Shown here: piece after piece, positions 8,660 to 56,850 of the stretch | Numbering within the stretch: the stretch's first letter is position 1 | Layout of the letters: each line of letters starts with the position of its first letter | Source of the DNA: Gammaproteobacteria bacterium | Lineage (GTDB): Bacteria > Pseudomonadota > Gammaproteobacteria > Steroidobacterales > GCA-2729495 | Reading direction: 5' to 3' | DNA: 64,000 nt | Assembly (NCBI GenBank): GCA_015709695.1 | Contig: CP054183.1 | Span: forward strand, 310,001-374,000 | Notes under the pieces: generated by a model | Seen by the model: only the letters and a program-made list of their open reading frames with translations | Databases searched by the model: none | What the model was told of the DNA's origin: nothing | Made by a program: the position numbers and the translations under genes

Positions 8660-10126
8660 TCAGACCGCGGCCGGCAGCGGCGCCGGCGTCTGGTGTGAAT
8701 CGGGTTCCGGGATCGGCACCGGGATCGGCAGGATGATCTTCCTGCGGGCATCGGCGGCGGTGTACCAGAGGTTCCAGGCCATCACCCACATGCCGAGCCA
8801 GATGAGGAAGCCGCCGAACCAGCGCGCCATGTACAGCGGCTTGATGGCGAGCAGGCTGTCGATGAATGGATAGGTGAGCGAGCCGTCGGGCTGCGTGGCG
8901 CGCCACATCATGCCCTCGGTGACGCCCGCGACCCACATGGCGACGACATAGAGCAAAGTGCCGGAAAAATGCAGCCAGAAGTGCAGTTCCATCCCGGCGC
9001 GGGAATGCATGGCGGGGCGGCCGAGTGCGCGCGGTGCCATCGCATACAGCGAGCCGATGGTGATCATCGCCACCCAGCCCAGCGAGCCTGAATGTACATG
9101 GGCGATGGTCCAGTCGGTGTAATGCGACAGCGAGTTGACGCTCTTGACGGCCATCATCGAGCCTTCGAAGGTCGAGGCGGCGTAGAACACCAGGGCGATG
9201 ACCATGAACTTCGCGGCCGGATCGTCGCGCAGCCGGTGCCAGGAGCCGTTGAAGGTGAACAGGCCGTTGGCCGCGGAGCCCCAGCTCGGCATCAGCAGCA
9301 CCAGCGAGAACGCCATGCCGACCGACTGCACCCAGTCGGGCAGGGCGGTGTACATCAGGTGGTGCGAGCCCGCCCACATGTACATGGAGATCAGGGCCCA
9401 GAAGTTGACGATCGAGAAGCGGTAGCTCCACAGCGGCTGCTGTGCCTGCCGCGGCACGAAGTAATACATCATGCCGAGGAAGCCGGCGGTGAGGAAGAAC
9501 GCCACCGCGTTGTGCCCGTACCACCACTGCACCATCGCATCGACCACCCCGGAGTAGATCGGGTAGGACTTGGTCAGGCTGACCGGCAGCGCGAGGTTGT
9601 TGACGATGTGCAGCAGGCCGACGGCGATGATGAAGGCGCCGTAGTACCAGTTGGCGACGTAGATGTGGCGGATGCGCCGGCGCGCCAGCGTGGCGAAGAA
9701 CACCGCGCCGAAGCTGACCCAGACCACCGCGATCAGGATGTCGATGAACCACTCCGGCTCGGCGTATTCCTTGTTCTGCGTGATGCCGAAGGGCAGGGTC
9801 AGCATCGACAGCACGCAGGCCAGCTGCCAGCCCCAGAAGGTGCCCTCGGCGAGGCCGCTCCAGGCGAGGCGAGTATGGCCGGTGCGCTGCACGACGTAGT
9901 AGCAGGTGCCCATCAGCGCCGAGCCACCGAAGGCGAAGATGACGCCAAAGGTGTGGTCCGGGCGCACGCGGCTGAAGGTCATCCACGGGATGTCGAGGTT
10001 GAGCCCTGGCCAGGCCAGCTCGGCCGCCGCGTACATGCCGATCAGCATGCCGACGATGCCCCACACTGCCGAGGCCAGCAGGAACAGGCGCACGACATGG
10101 TCGTTGTAGTACTCGGTTTTGGGCAT
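8660..10126 (-). CDS. ccoN: cbb3-type cytochrome c oxidase subunit I
   Basis: 488 residues, 12 membrane helices and the subunit-I His ligands, for example [13 protein letters not shown] (Cu-B and Tyr region), [15 protein letters not shown] and the [11 protein letters not shown] loop. It is the catalytic heme b / heme b3-CuB subunit of the high-oxygen-affinity oxidase. The start ATG at 10126 has AGGAG just upstream and begins [14 protein letters not shown]. Upstream, TATAAT on the minus strand at 10156-10151 is a possible -10; I could not find a clear FNR/Anr box, the usual regulator, in 10127-10312. Confidence 0.95.
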
Positions 10127-49275: not shown

Positions 49276-49656
49276 TCAGGCCAGCCTGCGGAAGCCGAGG
49301 AACAATCCCAGCCAGAGCGCCGTGCGGAAGCTCATGGCGCCCACGCTCTGCATCGCGACCTCGTCGCTGGTGAAGTGGAACCAGACGACGACACCGAGCA
49401 TCACGGCGTTGGCGAGGAAGATCAGCCAGGCGCCGTTGCGGGCGGCGGCGGCACTGTTCCAGCCGGCCACCCCGGTTGCCACGTAGGCAAGCCCCATGAT
49501 GGCGTTGTAAGTCAGCAGTGGCATGAACACCGTGTAGCCGGGATCGCGCAGGCCCAGCAGGGCGCTGCCGCCGGCTGCCAGCGTGACCAGGCCGAAGACG
49601 ATGGCCAGCAGCGCGAGGGCGCGCTGCGGGCGGGCACGCTGCATCAGTGTGCTCAT
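49276..49656 (-). CDS. four-helix membrane protein, 126 aa
   Basis: Four predicted helices: ALALLAIVFGLVTLAAGGSA, YTVFMPLLTYNAIMGLAYVA, ARNGAWLIFLANAVMLGVVV and the last FRTALWLGLFLGFRR. No family was recognised with confidence. It may be a small DUF-type inner-membrane protein. The ATG at 49656 has no strong Shine-Dalgarno. It is 79 bp upstream of the F420 operon on the same strand. Confidence 0.6.
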   Translation of the reverse strand: MSTLMQRARPQRALALLAIVFGLVTLAAGGSALLGLRDPGYTVFMPLLTYNAIMGLAYVATGVAGWNSAAAARNGAWLIFLANAVMLGVVVWFHFTSDEVAMQSVGAMSFRTALWLGLFLGFRRLA

Positions 49657-49742
49657 GCGGGCGATTGTCGGCCGGTCCTGCCATGGCCTGCAAGGCGGCG
49701 GCTGCTATGCTGGAGCATCGGCCTGGTCAGCTGGTGGACATC

Positions 49743-50243
49743 ATGGGAATGGAGGGATTGCTCTGGGCGGCCGCGCTGCTGCTGGTTGCGCTCGGACTTG
49801 CCGGACTGGTGCTGCCGGCGCTGCCGGGCATTCCGCTGCTGTTCCTCGGCCTGGTTGCCGCAGCCTGGGCCGAGGGCTTCGCGCATGTCGGCGCCGGCAC
49901 CATTGCCGTGCTGGCACTGCTGGCGCTGCTCGCCTGGGGTGCGGATTTCGCCGCGGTCGCCTTCGGTGCGCGCCGCTTTGGCGCCACGCCGCGGGCCGCC
50001 TGGGGTGCGGCGGCCGGGATGCTCGTCGGGCTGTTCTTCGGGCTGCCCGGCATCCTGCTCGGGCCGTTCCTCGGCGCGATGCTCGGCGAGCTGCTGGGCA
50101 ACCGCTCGCTGCGTCAGGCGGGACTGGCGAGCCTGGGCGCCACGCTCGGCCTCGCCTTCGGCGCCGCGGTGAAGATGGCGCTCGCCTTCGTCATGCTCGG
50201 CATCTTCCTGGTGGCACGCTTCAGCAGCGGCAATGGTGCCTGA
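49743..50243 (+). CDS. DUF456 membrane protein, 166 aa
   Basis: DUF456 pattern: LLVALGLAGLVLPALPGIPL, ADFAAVAFGARRFGATPRAA, GMLVGLFFGLPGILLGPFLG and LGEL, with repeated Gly-rich helices. ATG 49743 begins at the membrane start; an upstream extension lacks homology. The 3' end at 50243 runs straight into the palindrome described below. Confidence 0.85.
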   Translation: MGMEGLLWAAALLLVALGLAGLVLPALPGIPLLFLGLVAAAWAEGFAHVGAGTIAVLALLALLAWGADFAAVAFGARRFGATPRAAWGAAAGMLVGLFFGLPGILLGPFLGAMLGELLGNRSLRQAGLASLGATLGLAFGAAVKMALAFVMLGIFLVARFSSGNGA

Positions 50244-50257
50244 CAGGAAAAGGTGCC

Positions 50258-50377
50258 AAAGGAAAAGGTGCCGGAAAAGGTGCCTCAAAGGAAAAGGTGC
50301 CTGACATATTTTCCGTTTACGGAAAATATGTCAGGCACCTTTTCCTTTGAGGCACCTTTTCCGGCACCTTTTCCTTT
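50258..50377. repeat. 120-bp palindrome, 58-bp perfect arms with 4-nt loop
   Basis: Left arm 50258-50315 and right arm 50320-50377 are perfect reverse complements around the loop TTTA (50316-50319). The arms are built of direct repeats of GGAAAAGGTGCC (50246-50257, 50261-50272, 50273-50284, 50290-50301) and an inner ACATATTTTCCG. It fills the gap between the convergent DUF456 and BI-1 genes and would fold into an exceptionally long RNA hairpin in either direction. It may act as a bidirectional terminator, a REP-like element, or both. No transposase is adjacent. Confidence 0.9.
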
Positions 50378-50412: not shown

Positions 50413-51126
50413 TCAGTCGTCGCCCATGCCGAGCAGGGCCAGCAGGTTGACGAAAATGTTGTAGATGCTGACGTAGAGGCTCACGGTGGCGAGGATGTAG
50501 TTGTCCTGGCCGCCGTGGATGATGGCACTGGTCTCGTGGAGGATCATGCCGGCCATGAGGATGACCACACCCGCGGAGATCGCCATCTGGAAAGCCGACA
50601 GGTCGACGAACAGGCCGACGAGGATCACGCCGAGCAGGCCGAAGAGACCGACCGTGAGGAAGCTGCCCATGAAGCCCATGTCGCGGCGTGACCTGATGGT
50701 GTAGGCGCTGAGGCCGGCGAACAGCAGGCCGGTCACGCCGAGGCTGGTCATCACCAGCTCGCCGCCATTCGGCACCGCGCGCAGGTAGGCGCTGAGCAGC
50801 GGGCCGAGCGTCAGGCCCATGAAGCCGGTCAGGGCGAATACCGCGGCGATACCCGCGGCCGAGTTGCGCAGCCGGAAGGTGAGGAACAGCAGGCCGAAGT
50901 ACCCCACCAGCGTGACGATGGGCCCGAGGTAGGGCATGCCGACCGCCATGGCGACGCCGGCCATCGCCGCGCTGAAGAGCAGCGTGGCGGCCAGCAGCAT
51001 GTAGGTGTTGCGCAGCACGCGGTTGGTTGCCAGTTCCGATGGCCTGGCAACGGCGCCTCCGGTGAAGCTGCCACCAGGGCCGCTGCGATCACCTGTCACC
51101 ACCCGCAATCCGCGCTCGTCCGCCAT
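50413..51126 (-). CDS. Bax inhibitor-1 family (YccA-like) membrane protein, 237 aa
   Basis: Seven helices: LRNTYMLLAATLLFSAAMAG, LGPIVTLVGYFGLLFLTFRL, AAVFALTGFMGLTLGPLLSA, TSLGVTGLLFAGLSAYTIRS, GSFLTVGLFGLLGVILVGLF, FQMAISAGVVILMAGMILHE and the terminal DNYILATVSLYVSIYNIFVN with LLALLGMGDD. The final acidic pair is the usual YccA/YbhL feature. Inner membrane; the family is linked to membrane-protein quality control or calcium leak. Start ATG 51126 follows AAGGAG. Confidence 0.9.
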   Translation of the reverse strand: MADERGLRVVTGDRSGPGGSFTGGAVARPSELATNRVLRNTYMLLAATLLFSAAMAGVAMAVGMPYLGPIVTLVGYFGLLFLTFRLRNSAAGIAAVFALTGFMGLTLGPLLSAYLRAVPNGGELVMTSLGVTGLLFAGLSAYTIRSRRDMGFMGSFLTVGLFGLLGVILVGLFVDLSAFQMAISAGVVILMAGMILHETSAIIHGGQDNYILATVSLYVSIYNIFVNLLALLGMGDD

Positions 51127-53919: not shown

Positions 53920-56850
53920 ATGGCGCGCGGCATGGACCATCGTGCAGCCGGCGCCGGCGGGGACGAGCGCAGCCTGCCGCGGATCGTCGAGCGGCTGGCG
54001 CGCGCGCAGCCGCAGGCGGTGGCCGTGAGCGGCATCGGTGACAGCCTCGACTACGCCGCGCTCAACCGCCGCGCCAACCGCATCGCCGCCTGCCTGGCCG
54101 CGGGCGGTGTCGGTCGCGGCAGCCTGGTCGGTCTCGCGCTGCCGCGGGGGAGCGACCTGGTGGCGGCCTTGCTCGGCATCCTCAAGGCCGGGGCTGCCTA
54201 CGTGCCGCTCGATCCCGGGCTGCCGCCGCGACGCCTGCGCCGCATGATCGAGCGTGTTTCCATGCCGATGCTGGTGACCGGGTCCGCGCTGCTGCCGGTC
54301 CTTGGCAGCGGACTGCCGACGCTGTGCCTGGACCGCGATGCCGCCGTCATCGACGGCGCCAGTGCCGGGGATCCTGCCGTCCCGCTGGCAGCGGCGGATC
54401 CCTGCTACGTCATGTTCACCTCGGGTTCCACCGGCGAACCCAAGGGCGTGGTGGTCACGCATGGCAACGTCGCGCGGCTGTTCGATCACCTGGGCCCGCA
54501 GCTCGGCCTTGGCGCCGCCGATACCTGGAGCCAGCTGCATTCCTGCGCCTTCGGCTTCTCGGTGTTCGAGATCTGGGGTGCGCTGTGCCACGGCGCGCGC
54601 CTGGCGCTGGCCCCGGCGCAGGCGCGGGCCGATGCCCTGGCATTGCGCGATTTCCTGCGGCGGGAAGGCGTGACGGTGCTCAGCCAGACACCCTCGGCAT
54701 TCCGCGAGACGGTGCTCGGCCCGGCGTTCGCCGGCCAGTGGGCATCGCTCGCGGTGCGCCTGCTGGTGCTGAGCGGCGAGGCCGTGCAGGTGGACGACCT
54801 GCGGCGCTGGTGGGCCGCGCAGGCATCGGGCAGACCGCGGCTGGTCAACAGCTATGCCATCACCGAGGCCGGCGGCAACGTCATGCTGCGCGAGTACGCG
54901 GCGGGCGACGACGATGCGCGCAACATCGGCCTGCCGCTGCCCGACGTGCCGGTGCACATCCTCGATGCCGCCGGCGTGGCCGTGCCGGACGGCGAGGCGG
55001 GCGAGCTCCACGTCGGCGGGCCCGGCATCGCCGCCGGTTACCTCGACGATGCCGCGCTGACCGCCAGCCGCTTCATCGACAGCGGGCCGCAGGCCGGGCG
55101 GCTGTACCGCACCGGCGACCGCGTGCGCAGGACCGCTGACGGCAGCCTGGAGTTCCTCGGCCGCCTCGACGAGCAGGTCAAGTGGCGCGGCTATCGGCTG
55201 GAACTCGGCGAGATCGAGTCGCTGCTGCGGACGCATCCGGGTGTCAGTGCCGCCGCGGCGGCGATCCGCGCCGACGGCTCCGGCGAGGAGAAGCTGGTCG
55301 CCTACGTGGTGCCCGGCGGCGGCGCGGGCGCGGCGCGCGAGCCGGAGTTCTGGCCGTCGCTCGGCGGTTACCAGGTCTATGACGATTTCCTCTACGGATT
55401 GATGACGAGCGATGCCGTGCGCAATGCCGCCTTGCGCACCGCCTTCGAGCGCCATGCGGCGGACCGCGTGGTGCTCGACCTCGGCACCGGCCCGCAGGCG
55501 CTGCTGGCGCGCATGGCGGCGCAGGCCGGCGCACGCCACGTGTATGCGGTGGAACTGCTGCCGGCCGCGGCGGAACAGGCGCGCGCCGCGGTGGCCGCCG
55601 CGGGCCTTGCCGGGCGCATCACCGTCATCACCGGCGACGCCGCGACGCTGCAGCTGCCCGAGGCGGCCGAGGTCTGCGCGCAGGGCATCATCGGCAACAT
55701 CGGCAGCGCCGATGGCATCGCCGCCATCTGGAATCGCGTGCGCAGCCAGTTTGCCGCCGGCGCGGTGGCGATACCCTCGCGCTGCACGACGCTGATCGCG
55801 CCGGTGGAACTGCCCGCGGCACTGCGCGCCTCGCCGAGGCTGGCACCGCTGGCGCTCGACTACGTGCGCCGCATCTTCGCGGCCGAGGGCCGGGCCTTCG
55901 ATCTGCGCCTGTGCCTGCGCAACCTGTCACCCGGCCAGCTGCTGGCGCCACCCCGGGTATTCGAGGACCTCGACTTCGCCGGTGCACTGCCCGAGGCGCA
56001 CGCCGGCGGCGCCCGCTTCGAACTGGCCCGGGCCGGCCACTTCGACGGCTTCCTGCTGTGGACGGTGGTGACCACCACGCCGGGCTGCGTGATCGATTAC
56101 CTCGAGCACCAGCACGCCTGGCTGCCGGTGTTCATGCCTTTGCCGGTGGACGGGCCCGCGCTGTCCGCGGGCGCGGTCATCGAAGCCGGATGGCAATGGC
56201 AGGCCGGCCGCGATGGCCTGTTCCCCGACTACCAGCTCGAGTCCCGCTACAGCATTGGCGGACGCAACGAGCACCACCGCTACCTGACGCGCCACCACGA
56301 GACGGCGCAGTGCGGCACCGCCCTGCACCGGCGCCTGCTCGAGTTGCCCGAGGCCGCCGTCGATCGCGTCGCGCCCGGCGACCTGCGCGCCTGGCTGGCG
56401 CGCCATCTGCCCGAGCCCCTGCTGCCCAACGCCTGGATGTACCTCGACGCCCTGCCGCTCAACACCAGCGGCAAGCTCGACCGGCGCGCGCTGCCGGCGC
56501 CCGCGGCACGCACCTGGGGCGGGCAGGGCGGTGCGCCGCAGACGGCGCTGGAATCCGACCTCGCCGCGCTCTGGGCGGAGATCCTCGGTGTCGCCGCCGT
56601 GGGCATGCAGGACAACTTCTTCGACCTCGGCGGCGATTCCATCGCGGCGGTGCGCCTCACCACCCAGTTGCAGCAGCTGCTCGACGCCGACGTGATGCTG
56701 GCGGCGATCTTCGAGGCACCGACCCTCGCCGCGCTCGCCCGCTACCTCGGCGAGCGTCATGCCGCTGCGGTGAGTACCCGCTACGGCACCGTCCGCAGCC
56801 GCAGCCCGGCGCAGCAGGCCGGCATGCCCCGCCAGCACGACGAGCCATGA
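53920..56850 (+). CDS. NRPS starter module: A domain interrupted by PRMT-like methyltransferase, then PCP; 976 aa
   Basis: Adenylation domain: A3 FTSGSTGEPKG (residue about 166), A4 FGFSVFEIWGAL (about 211), A5 NSYAITEAG (about 310), A7 LYRTGDR, A8 GRLDEQVKWRGYRLE (about 415) and A10 NTSGKLDRRAL (about 848). Between A8 and A10, about 430 residues apart rather than the usual 100, lies a methyltransferase with VVLDLGTGPQALLARMAAQA and a beta-barrel tail (WLPVFMPLPVDG), resembling protein arginine methyltransferases. PCP serine is Ser907 in FDLGGDSIA. No condensation domain precedes, so this is a loading module. Position 235 is Gly instead of Asp, hinting at a substrate that is not a normal alpha-amino acid. 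Confidence 0.9.
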   Translation: MARGMDHRAAGAGGDERSLPRIVERLARAQPQAVAVSGIGDSLDYAALNRRANRIAACLAAGGVGRGSLVGLALPRGSDLVAALLGILKAGAAYVPLDPGLPPRRLRRMIERVSMPMLVTGSALLPVLGSGLPTLCLDRDAAVIDGASAGDPAVPLAAADPCYVMFTSGSTGEPKGVVVTHGNVARLFDHLGPQLGLGAADTWSQLHSCAFGFSVFEIWGALCHGARLALAPAQARADALALRDFLRREGVTVLSQTPSAFRETVLGPAFAGQWASLAVRLLVLSGEAVQVDDLRRWWAAQASGRPRLVNSYAITEAGGNVMLREYAAGDDDARNIGLPLPDVPVHILDAAGVAVPDGEAGELHVGGPGIAAGYLDDAALTASRFIDSGPQAGRLYRTGDRVRRTADGSLEFLGRLDEQVKWRGYRLELGEIESLLRTHPGVSAAAAAIRADGSGEEKLVAYVVPGGGAGAAREPEFWPSLGGYQVYDDFLYGLMTSDAVRNAALRTAFERHAADRVVLDLGTGPQALLARMAAQAGARHVYAVELLPAAAEQARAAVAAAGLAGRITVITGDAATLQLPEAAEVCAQGIIGNIGSADGIAAIWNRVRSQFAAGAVAIPSRCTTLIAPVELPAALRASPRLAPLALDYVRRIFAAEGRAFDLRLCLRNLSPGQLLAPPRVFEDLDFAGALPEAHAGGARFELARAGHFDGFLLWTVVTTTPGCVIDYLEHQHAWLPVFMPLPVDGPALSAGAVIEAGWQWQAGRDGLFPDYQLESRYSIGGRNEHHRYLTRHHETAQCGTALHRRLLELPEAAVDRVAPGDLRAWLARHLPEPLLPNAWMYLDALPLNTSGKLDRRALPAPAARTWGGQGGAPQTALESDLAALWAEILGVAAVGMQDNFFDLGGDSIAAVRLTTQLQQLLDADVMLAAIFEAPTLAALARYLGERHAAAVSTRYGTVRSRSPAQQAGMPRQHDEP

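Follow-up and report, generated by a model that had tools for sequence, protein, structure and literature searches.

In the space that separates two convergent genes, one encoding a DUF456 protein and the other a Bax1-I family membrane protein, the window (the whole stretch of 64 kb that was analysed) contains an exact inverted repeat, whose two arms of 59 nt each are 100% complementary and enclose a TT centre (Table 1). An earlier, sequence-only reading had placed convergent genes on either side, as is the case, and had described a perfect 58-bp inverted repeat with a 4-nt TTTA loop, which is the same object: as folded single-stranded DNA, the palindrome is predicted to form 58 pairs and a TTTA loop at -75.5 kcal/mol (z about -24), and the RNA of the palindrome with its flanks is predicted to fold at -126 kcal/mol vs a shuffled mean of -44. 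It is the sole long perfect inverted repeat within the window; complementarity among the next-best ones does not exceed 87%, a value reached by one that overlaps the palindrome itself. An Rfam search of the window gave zero matches.

The palindrome is indeed made of repeated units, as had been claimed. The box GGAAAAGGTGCC occurs seven times in the window, with at most one mismatch and always at the palindrome (0.09 in shuffles); four boxes lie on the left side and three on the right, and only the innermost pair extends into TGACATATTTTCC. The element reaches beyond the palindrome into 50232-50257, where the fourth box of the left side follows an older unit, AATGGTGCCTGACA, that supplies the DUF456 gene with its stop codon, TGA. 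Simple tandem slippage of GGAAAAGGTGCC was considered as an origin and rejected because the linkers between the boxes differ and different variants nest as matching pairs.

Table 1. Features at and around the palindrome (window positions)
Feature	Position	Strand	Remark
DUF456 protein gene, left neighbour	49647..50243	+	stop codon from oldest repeat unit
Older, outermost unit AATGGTGCCTGACA (variant AATGGTGCC)	50232..50245	+	contains TGA 50241-50243
Box GGAAAAGGTGCC, truncated unit	50246..50257	+	right arm without counterpart
Perfect palindrome	50258..50377	.	arms 50258-50316 and 50319-50377, 2-nt centre
Box GGAAAAGGTGCC, truncated outer unit	50261..50272	+	mirror = 50363-50374
Box GGAAAAGGTGCC, truncated outer unit	50273..50284	+	mirror = 50351-50362
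Complete innermost unit GGAAAAGGTGCCTGACATATTTTCC	50290..50314	+	over AAAGGTGCCTGACATATTTTCCGTTT = left terminal repeat of the transposase gene
Terminator-like site	50296..50343	+	20 counted pairs, 4-nt loop, then TTTTCCTTTG; consensus match only
Mirror terminator-like site	50339-50296, then TTTTCCTTTG	-	consensus match only
Centre GTTTAC	50315..50320	.
Complete innermost unit, inverted copy	50321..50345	-
Box GGAAAAGGTGCC, truncated outer unit	50351..50362	-
Box GGAAAAGGTGCC, truncated outer unit	50363..50374	-
Bax1-I family membrane protein gene, right neighbour	50413..51126	-	ends 36 nt from palindrome

The earlier remark that the palindrome has no T-run is half right: TTTT lies directly 3' of the inner GC-rich stem on each strand (GGCACC-TTTTCC), and consensus matching gave terminator-like sites on both strands. 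As far as sequence goes, a GC-rich stem-loop followed by a U-tract is found in either direction, and these T-tracts, together with the convergent position, make a bidirectional-terminator role of the palindrome for both genes plausible, probably as a by-product.

A dispersed repeat family in the genome

A search for the repeat unit in the genome and its relatives, which the sequence-only reading had recommended, revealed a dispersed family. In the 3.1-Mb single-contig genome, GGAAAAGGTGCC has 15 + 10 exact matches vs 0 + 1 for the reversed control, and the core AAAGGTGYCWGACWTATTT has 58 vs 0; among the 98 relatives searched, this core is abundant in only two species, both of the same genus. 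Clusters of the repeat lie at about twenty loci, and at 11 of these, where both orientations are present, they form exact palindrome arms of 28-81 nt, a range in which the window copy is ordinary and is exceeded by others. By simple codon-usage gene calls, 23 of 25 clusters are intergenic (11 between convergent, 9 between tandem and 3 between divergent genes) and two lie inside NRPS genes; most have a gene end at most about 30 nt away on at least one side. A literature search with the repeat sequence strings returned unrelated subjects, and the matches listed looked like primer matches.

The recurrence of the structure bears on the possibility, raised in the sequence-only reading, of an assembly or inverted-read artefact. 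Library chimeras can create long perfect palindromes; here, this explanation is contradicted by palindromes of the same kind at 11 loci and in independently assembled genomes, among them a related palindrome at the orthologous site in relative G004, and by the arms, which consist of a genome-wide unit and not of unique flank sequence. Because so many loci and several assemblies show such palindromes, the artefact reading was rejected as having practically no likelihood.

Just past the right end of the window, two NRPS genes carry related units in frame (L067 3017-3200 and about 9355-9540; genome coordinates G000:374516-374700 and 380854-381040). In each gene, the units separate the condensation domain from the adenylation domain; they are nearly identical in both and translate as ...EEVPAEKVPEKVPVTISTPSV...DWHLFRHLF... 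The window itself holds the start of an NRPS gene cluster at 53920-56850, with adenylation, carrier and embedded methyltransferase-like domains. Additionally, another palindrome type, GGAAGAGGTGCCTRCCCC...TCCTTCAGAAGGA..., lies at the centre of two window-type elements (L026 1441-1510 and 3145-3210; G000:2453440-2453510 and 2455145-2455210).

The resident transposase and its repeats

No transposase adjoins the palindrome, as had been correctly stated; the cognate gene lies elsewhere, at G000:2061043-2061729 (2.06 Mb), and is one of two Y1_Tnp genes in the genome. This gene encodes a TIR-associated tyrosine transposase (RAYT/TIRYT type) and is bracketed in inverted orientation by AAAGGTGCCTGACATATTTTCC, the palindrome sequence, with AAAGGTGCCTGACATATTTTCCGTTT on the left and GGAAAATATGTCAGGCACCTTT inverted on the right; letter for letter, these ends agree with the core of the palindrome in the window. 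Its product matches PF01797 at 34.6 bits (cut-off 23) and contains the HUH motif NHVH and the tyrosine motif YVEMNP, and the NHVH and Y-NP columns are invariant in the alignment; the TIRYT proteins are 229-241 aa long and their genes have TIRs of about 22 nt. Its score of 72.9 bits against the NCBIfam equivalog NF047646 REP_Tyr_transpos is just below the cut-off of 80; the protein is related to, but outside, the strict equivalog. A PDB search with the single transposase sequence gave zero matches; only the TIRYT profile matched, weakly, the E. coli TnpArep structure 4er8 (E=0.0013). The second Y1_Tnp gene (L034; G000:2314959-2315507) is 38% identical to the first and has a GAAAAGCCCGACCTGGCACC repeat on one side.

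In the related genome G002, an orthologue that is 84% identical occupies the same place beside ychF, and dN/dS is 0.26; the TIRYT gene is single-copy, vertically kept and subject to purifying selection, the usual condition of RAYTs. In G003, G007 and other genus members with ychF assembled, this place contains neither the gene nor the motif. The motif is abundant in G004, whose assembly contains no copy of this gene and is also missing the ychF region beside which the gene lies.

Across the order, 50 of 246 genomes contain a degenerate pattern of the TIR ends, for which controls gave hardly any matches; its dispersed copies carry the local variant of each genome. Related TIRYT genes of other genera each have distinct ends, being GGTGCCGGGTCTATTT in G013, GGTGTCAGGTTTATTT in G045, GGGGACAGATTTATTT in G023, GGGGACAGATCTATTT in G220, GGTGTCAGATTTATTT in G039 and GGTGCCGGATTTATTT in G038. 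In G220, where the TIR is AAAGGGGACAGATCTATTT, there are 71 dispersed pattern copies, and among the matches listed all are AAAGGGGACAGATCTATTT, identical to the transposase ends; the TIR likewise matches the local dispersed repeats in G023 (AAAGGGGACAGATTTATTT), G045 (AAAGGTGTCAGGTTTATTT) and G039 (AAAGGTGTCAGATTTATTT). These comparisons demonstrate, at the level of sequence, that the repeat family follows the resident TIRYT. At least two motif copies are present in 14 of the 17 genomes with a close TIRYT vs 24 of the 229 others (Fisher P=2e-10), a value that is only indicative because the threshold for a close TIRYT (at least 320 bits) was picked after viewing the list and the genomes are phylogenetically non-independent. 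The 24 genomes that carry the motif although no close TIRYT is present in their assembly tell against the link; gene loss, gaps or mobilisers of another kind are candidate explanations. Inverted repeats and dispersed copies are also what a miniature derivative of some common DDE insertion sequence would display; such an origin is highly improbable, since in many genomes it is a Y1/HUH gene that the motif brackets, and a non-exhaustive search has so far found no DDE transposase with these ends.

Comparison between species revealed presence and absence at individual sites. Sites 5, 6, 8 and 10 are occupied in this genome, and G002 or G006 has none of this element there, a pattern that agrees with movement by insertion or excision. 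At two such sites, G002 has a different palindrome, beginning GGTGCCGGTGTT, a repeat to which the ends of another TIRYT-like gene, found in G004 (L129), are similar; palindromes of this kind lie at the intergenic sites L298 and L299 (G002:C15), where this genome has the window-type element. At the window site itself, G004 carries a different composite, built of AATGGTGCCTGACATATTTTC. The older unit is complete at the orthologous place in G004, and in both species the DUF456 gene ends at the TGA of this unit; the window retains a remnant of it outside the palindrome, at 50232-50245. The remnant and the G004 composite thus indicate that a newer variant has come to lie over an older one at this site. 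The pre-insertion state was also sought at G220 sites by comparison with G246 and G248, which were too diverged or carried other nested palindromes there. Nested palindromes of about 300 bp with other repeat variants, orthologous to a G220 element site, lie at L353 150-550 (G248) and at L352 (G246).

The same observations were weighed against a dedicated bidirectional terminator of the convergent gene pair, with the repeats elsewhere being terminators that are alike by convergence. The convergent genes and their tight spacing, the T-tracts 3' of the stem on both strands and the very stable RNA hairpin agree with it, as do the 11 of 23 intergenic clusters between convergent genes (P=0.016 vs an assumed 25%) and the ordinary hairpin terminators found 3' of the Bax1-I gene in other lineages. 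However, a 19-nt core common to the repeats is unexpected for terminators, as is their bracketing of the transposase gene as inverted repeats that change sequence in step with the gene; site 8 keeps the host's own terminator next to the element, and clusters also occur between tandem or divergent genes and within the two NRPS genes. A purely terminator origin is accordingly improbable.

Instead, the palindrome is very probably a composite REPIN-like element derived from the TIR of the resident single-copy TIRYT, an HUH/tyrosine transposase of the RAYT superfamily, because the dispersed family, the match to the gene ends, the co-occurrence and co-change of repeat and transposase, the sites without the element in relatives and the unit anatomy described below point to the same source. 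The suggestion of a REP/BIME-like or mobile palindrome made in the sequence-only reading is borne out in so far as the family is tied to a RAYT-type gene and related species do not have the element at several of its sites.

Nested mirror anatomy and the origin of the symmetry

The units of the family are stacked as nested mirror images. In six genomes, 131 of 138 innermost units are complete vs 74 of 176 outer ones (P=3e-25), in a count where units within one element are non-independent. Truncated outer units usually end directly after GGTGYC, and the next unit begins 3-6 nt later; in the window, each outer unit is cut off right after GGTGCC, mirror-image around the complete inner pair. Left and right members of outer pairs are the same in 17 of 21 cases in this genome (permutation mean 9%) and in 8 of 8 in G220 (permutation 41%); in G110, none of the six nested pairs is concordant. 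An outer pair may belong to another variant than the inner pair, as seen in G220 and G002, and either variant then occurs left and right alike. The mirror extends past the outermost unit in G220 by a mean of 5.0 nt vs 1.5 by permutation (up to 15 nt), and in G023 by up to 38 nt, where it includes an older unit. Extra units on one arm only occur in L070 at 4006, in L081 at 3012 and in the window at 50246.

In the REPIN-like composite, two complete TIR units (GGAAAAGGTGCCTGACATATTTTCC) face each other around the 6-nt centre as the innermost hairpin, and the mirror-image sequences outside this pair are read as remnants of older units. For its origin, the following course may be envisaged. The TIRYT encoded at 2.06 Mb would act in trans on single-stranded hairpin DNA, cutting at GGTGYC/W (the slash marks the cut), and newer copies would take the place of the core in older ones; the palindrome would in this way record successive rounds and keep matching arms. 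Such core replacement at the cut would explain most simply why a complete inner pair is surrounded by outer pairs that are truncated. To our knowledge, no experiment has been performed on the TIRYT subclass. In most variants, the truncation point is C/T or C/A, and characterised TnpAREP enzymes are described as cutting at C/T and C/A dinucleotides (PMC8266576). According to the same paper, the complementary (iREP) strand is not cut by the E. coli and S. maltophilia TnpAREP, and cutting of both arms of one strand therefore lacks direct support. The specific form in which the transposase cuts both arms at GGTGYC/W and a fresh hairpin replaces the core, leaving a layered record with the youngest variant innermost, is put forward tentatively and is on the doubtful side.

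Within the same mobile family, the mirror symmetry could also arise by replication, with a nascent strand that folds back or switches template in an imperfect hairpin and uses one arm as the template for the other, so that a quasi-palindrome is corrected or the flank is duplicated in inverted form. This route would explain why the mirror runs past the outermost unit into the flank in several genomes, and extra units on one arm only are expected if the second arm is still uncopied; by itself, however, it leaves unexplained both the outer ends after GGTGYC as opposed to complete innermost units and the different variants in inner and outer pairs. Template switching between arms accounts for the symmetry equally well and may act in addition to core replacement; as the source of the symmetry, it is a serious possibility, though short of a probable one.

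The nested mirror anatomy provides a candidate cut site and a relative order of insertion, and bears on the spread of REP-like repeats. If true, nested growth would amount to spreading by core replacement at occupied sites, which is undescribed for REPINs in the accessible papers. The family also shows that palindromes of 100-200 bp with almost perfect symmetry can persist in these chromosomes. More broadly, the TIRYTs, domesticated transposases of a subgroup that is widespread yet hardly studied, are linked to dispersed repeats in about one-fifth of the sampled genomes of one order (50/246), and the matching ends predict the substrate of each enzyme.

Relation to known repeat systems

Compared with a bidirectional intrinsic terminator, the palindrome has the GC-rich stem, the T-tract on both strands and the position between convergent genes; however, it belongs to a mobile family, and its stem exceeds that of such a terminator several-fold. 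The canonical GTAG REPs and BIMEs with their RAYTs, as described by Nunvar et al. 2010 (PMC2817692), resemble the present family in that the RAYT lies between inverted copies of the repeat of its own genome and that repeat and transposase change together. A canonical REP was nevertheless rejected, because the GTAG/GTGG foot is missing (the tetranucleotide GT[AG]G is absent from 50258-50377) and a single unit forms no hairpin; the RAYT subgroup also differs.

REPINs, as presented by Bertels and Rainey 2011 (PMC3116915), likewise pair two short repeats in inverted orientation into a single hairpin, are dispersed between genes and occur in genomes with a single-copy RAYT. Here, too, two inverted repeats with a short spacer give one predicted hairpin, the copies are many and lie mostly between genes, and the same repeat brackets a RAYT gene of the same genome. 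In contrast to REPINs, there is no REP palindrome inside each repeat, the arms are exact and long, and the units form nested mirrors vs the tandem-repeat clusters in SBW25.

The protein has the Y1_Tnp domain, HUH motif and YxxxNP of the RAYT superfamily. It also agrees with the TIRYTs, which Quentin et al. 2018 list as subclass 2.1 of TnpAY1: their table (PMC6006769) gives about 238 aa, NHVH, a Y[IV]ELNP-like motif and TIRs replacing REPs, and the proteins of 229-241 aa with NHVH, YVEMNP and TIRs found here correspond to it. The palindrome thus appears to work like a REPIN and, by its parts, to belong with the TIR repeats of TIRYTs. 'TIR repeats' were named by Di Nocera et al. (2013), who already reported dispersed TIR copies as dimers and clusters (PMC3733652). 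The TIR core GGGGWSAS, a consensus valid for only some published TIRs, does not fit GGTGCCTG of this genome but fits GGGGACAG of relatives. In the nested mirror form, no earlier description was found in the literature consulted (passages of openly accessible papers), and no firm priority is claimed. As portrayed in PMC3733652 and PMC6006769, TIR repeats and TIRtrons share with the present system a Y1/HUH gene of about 230 aa, inverted-repeat flanks without a GTAG foot, dispersed TIRs as singles, dimers and clusters, and a GGGGWSAS-like core in the relatives G220 and G023 (GGGGACAG); they differ in that the core here is GGTGYCWGAC and the units stand in mirror stacks, with long exact palindromes and outer units cut after GGTGYC. 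The dispersed TIR-repeat type is therefore already known, and the nested mirror anatomy is its less expected part.
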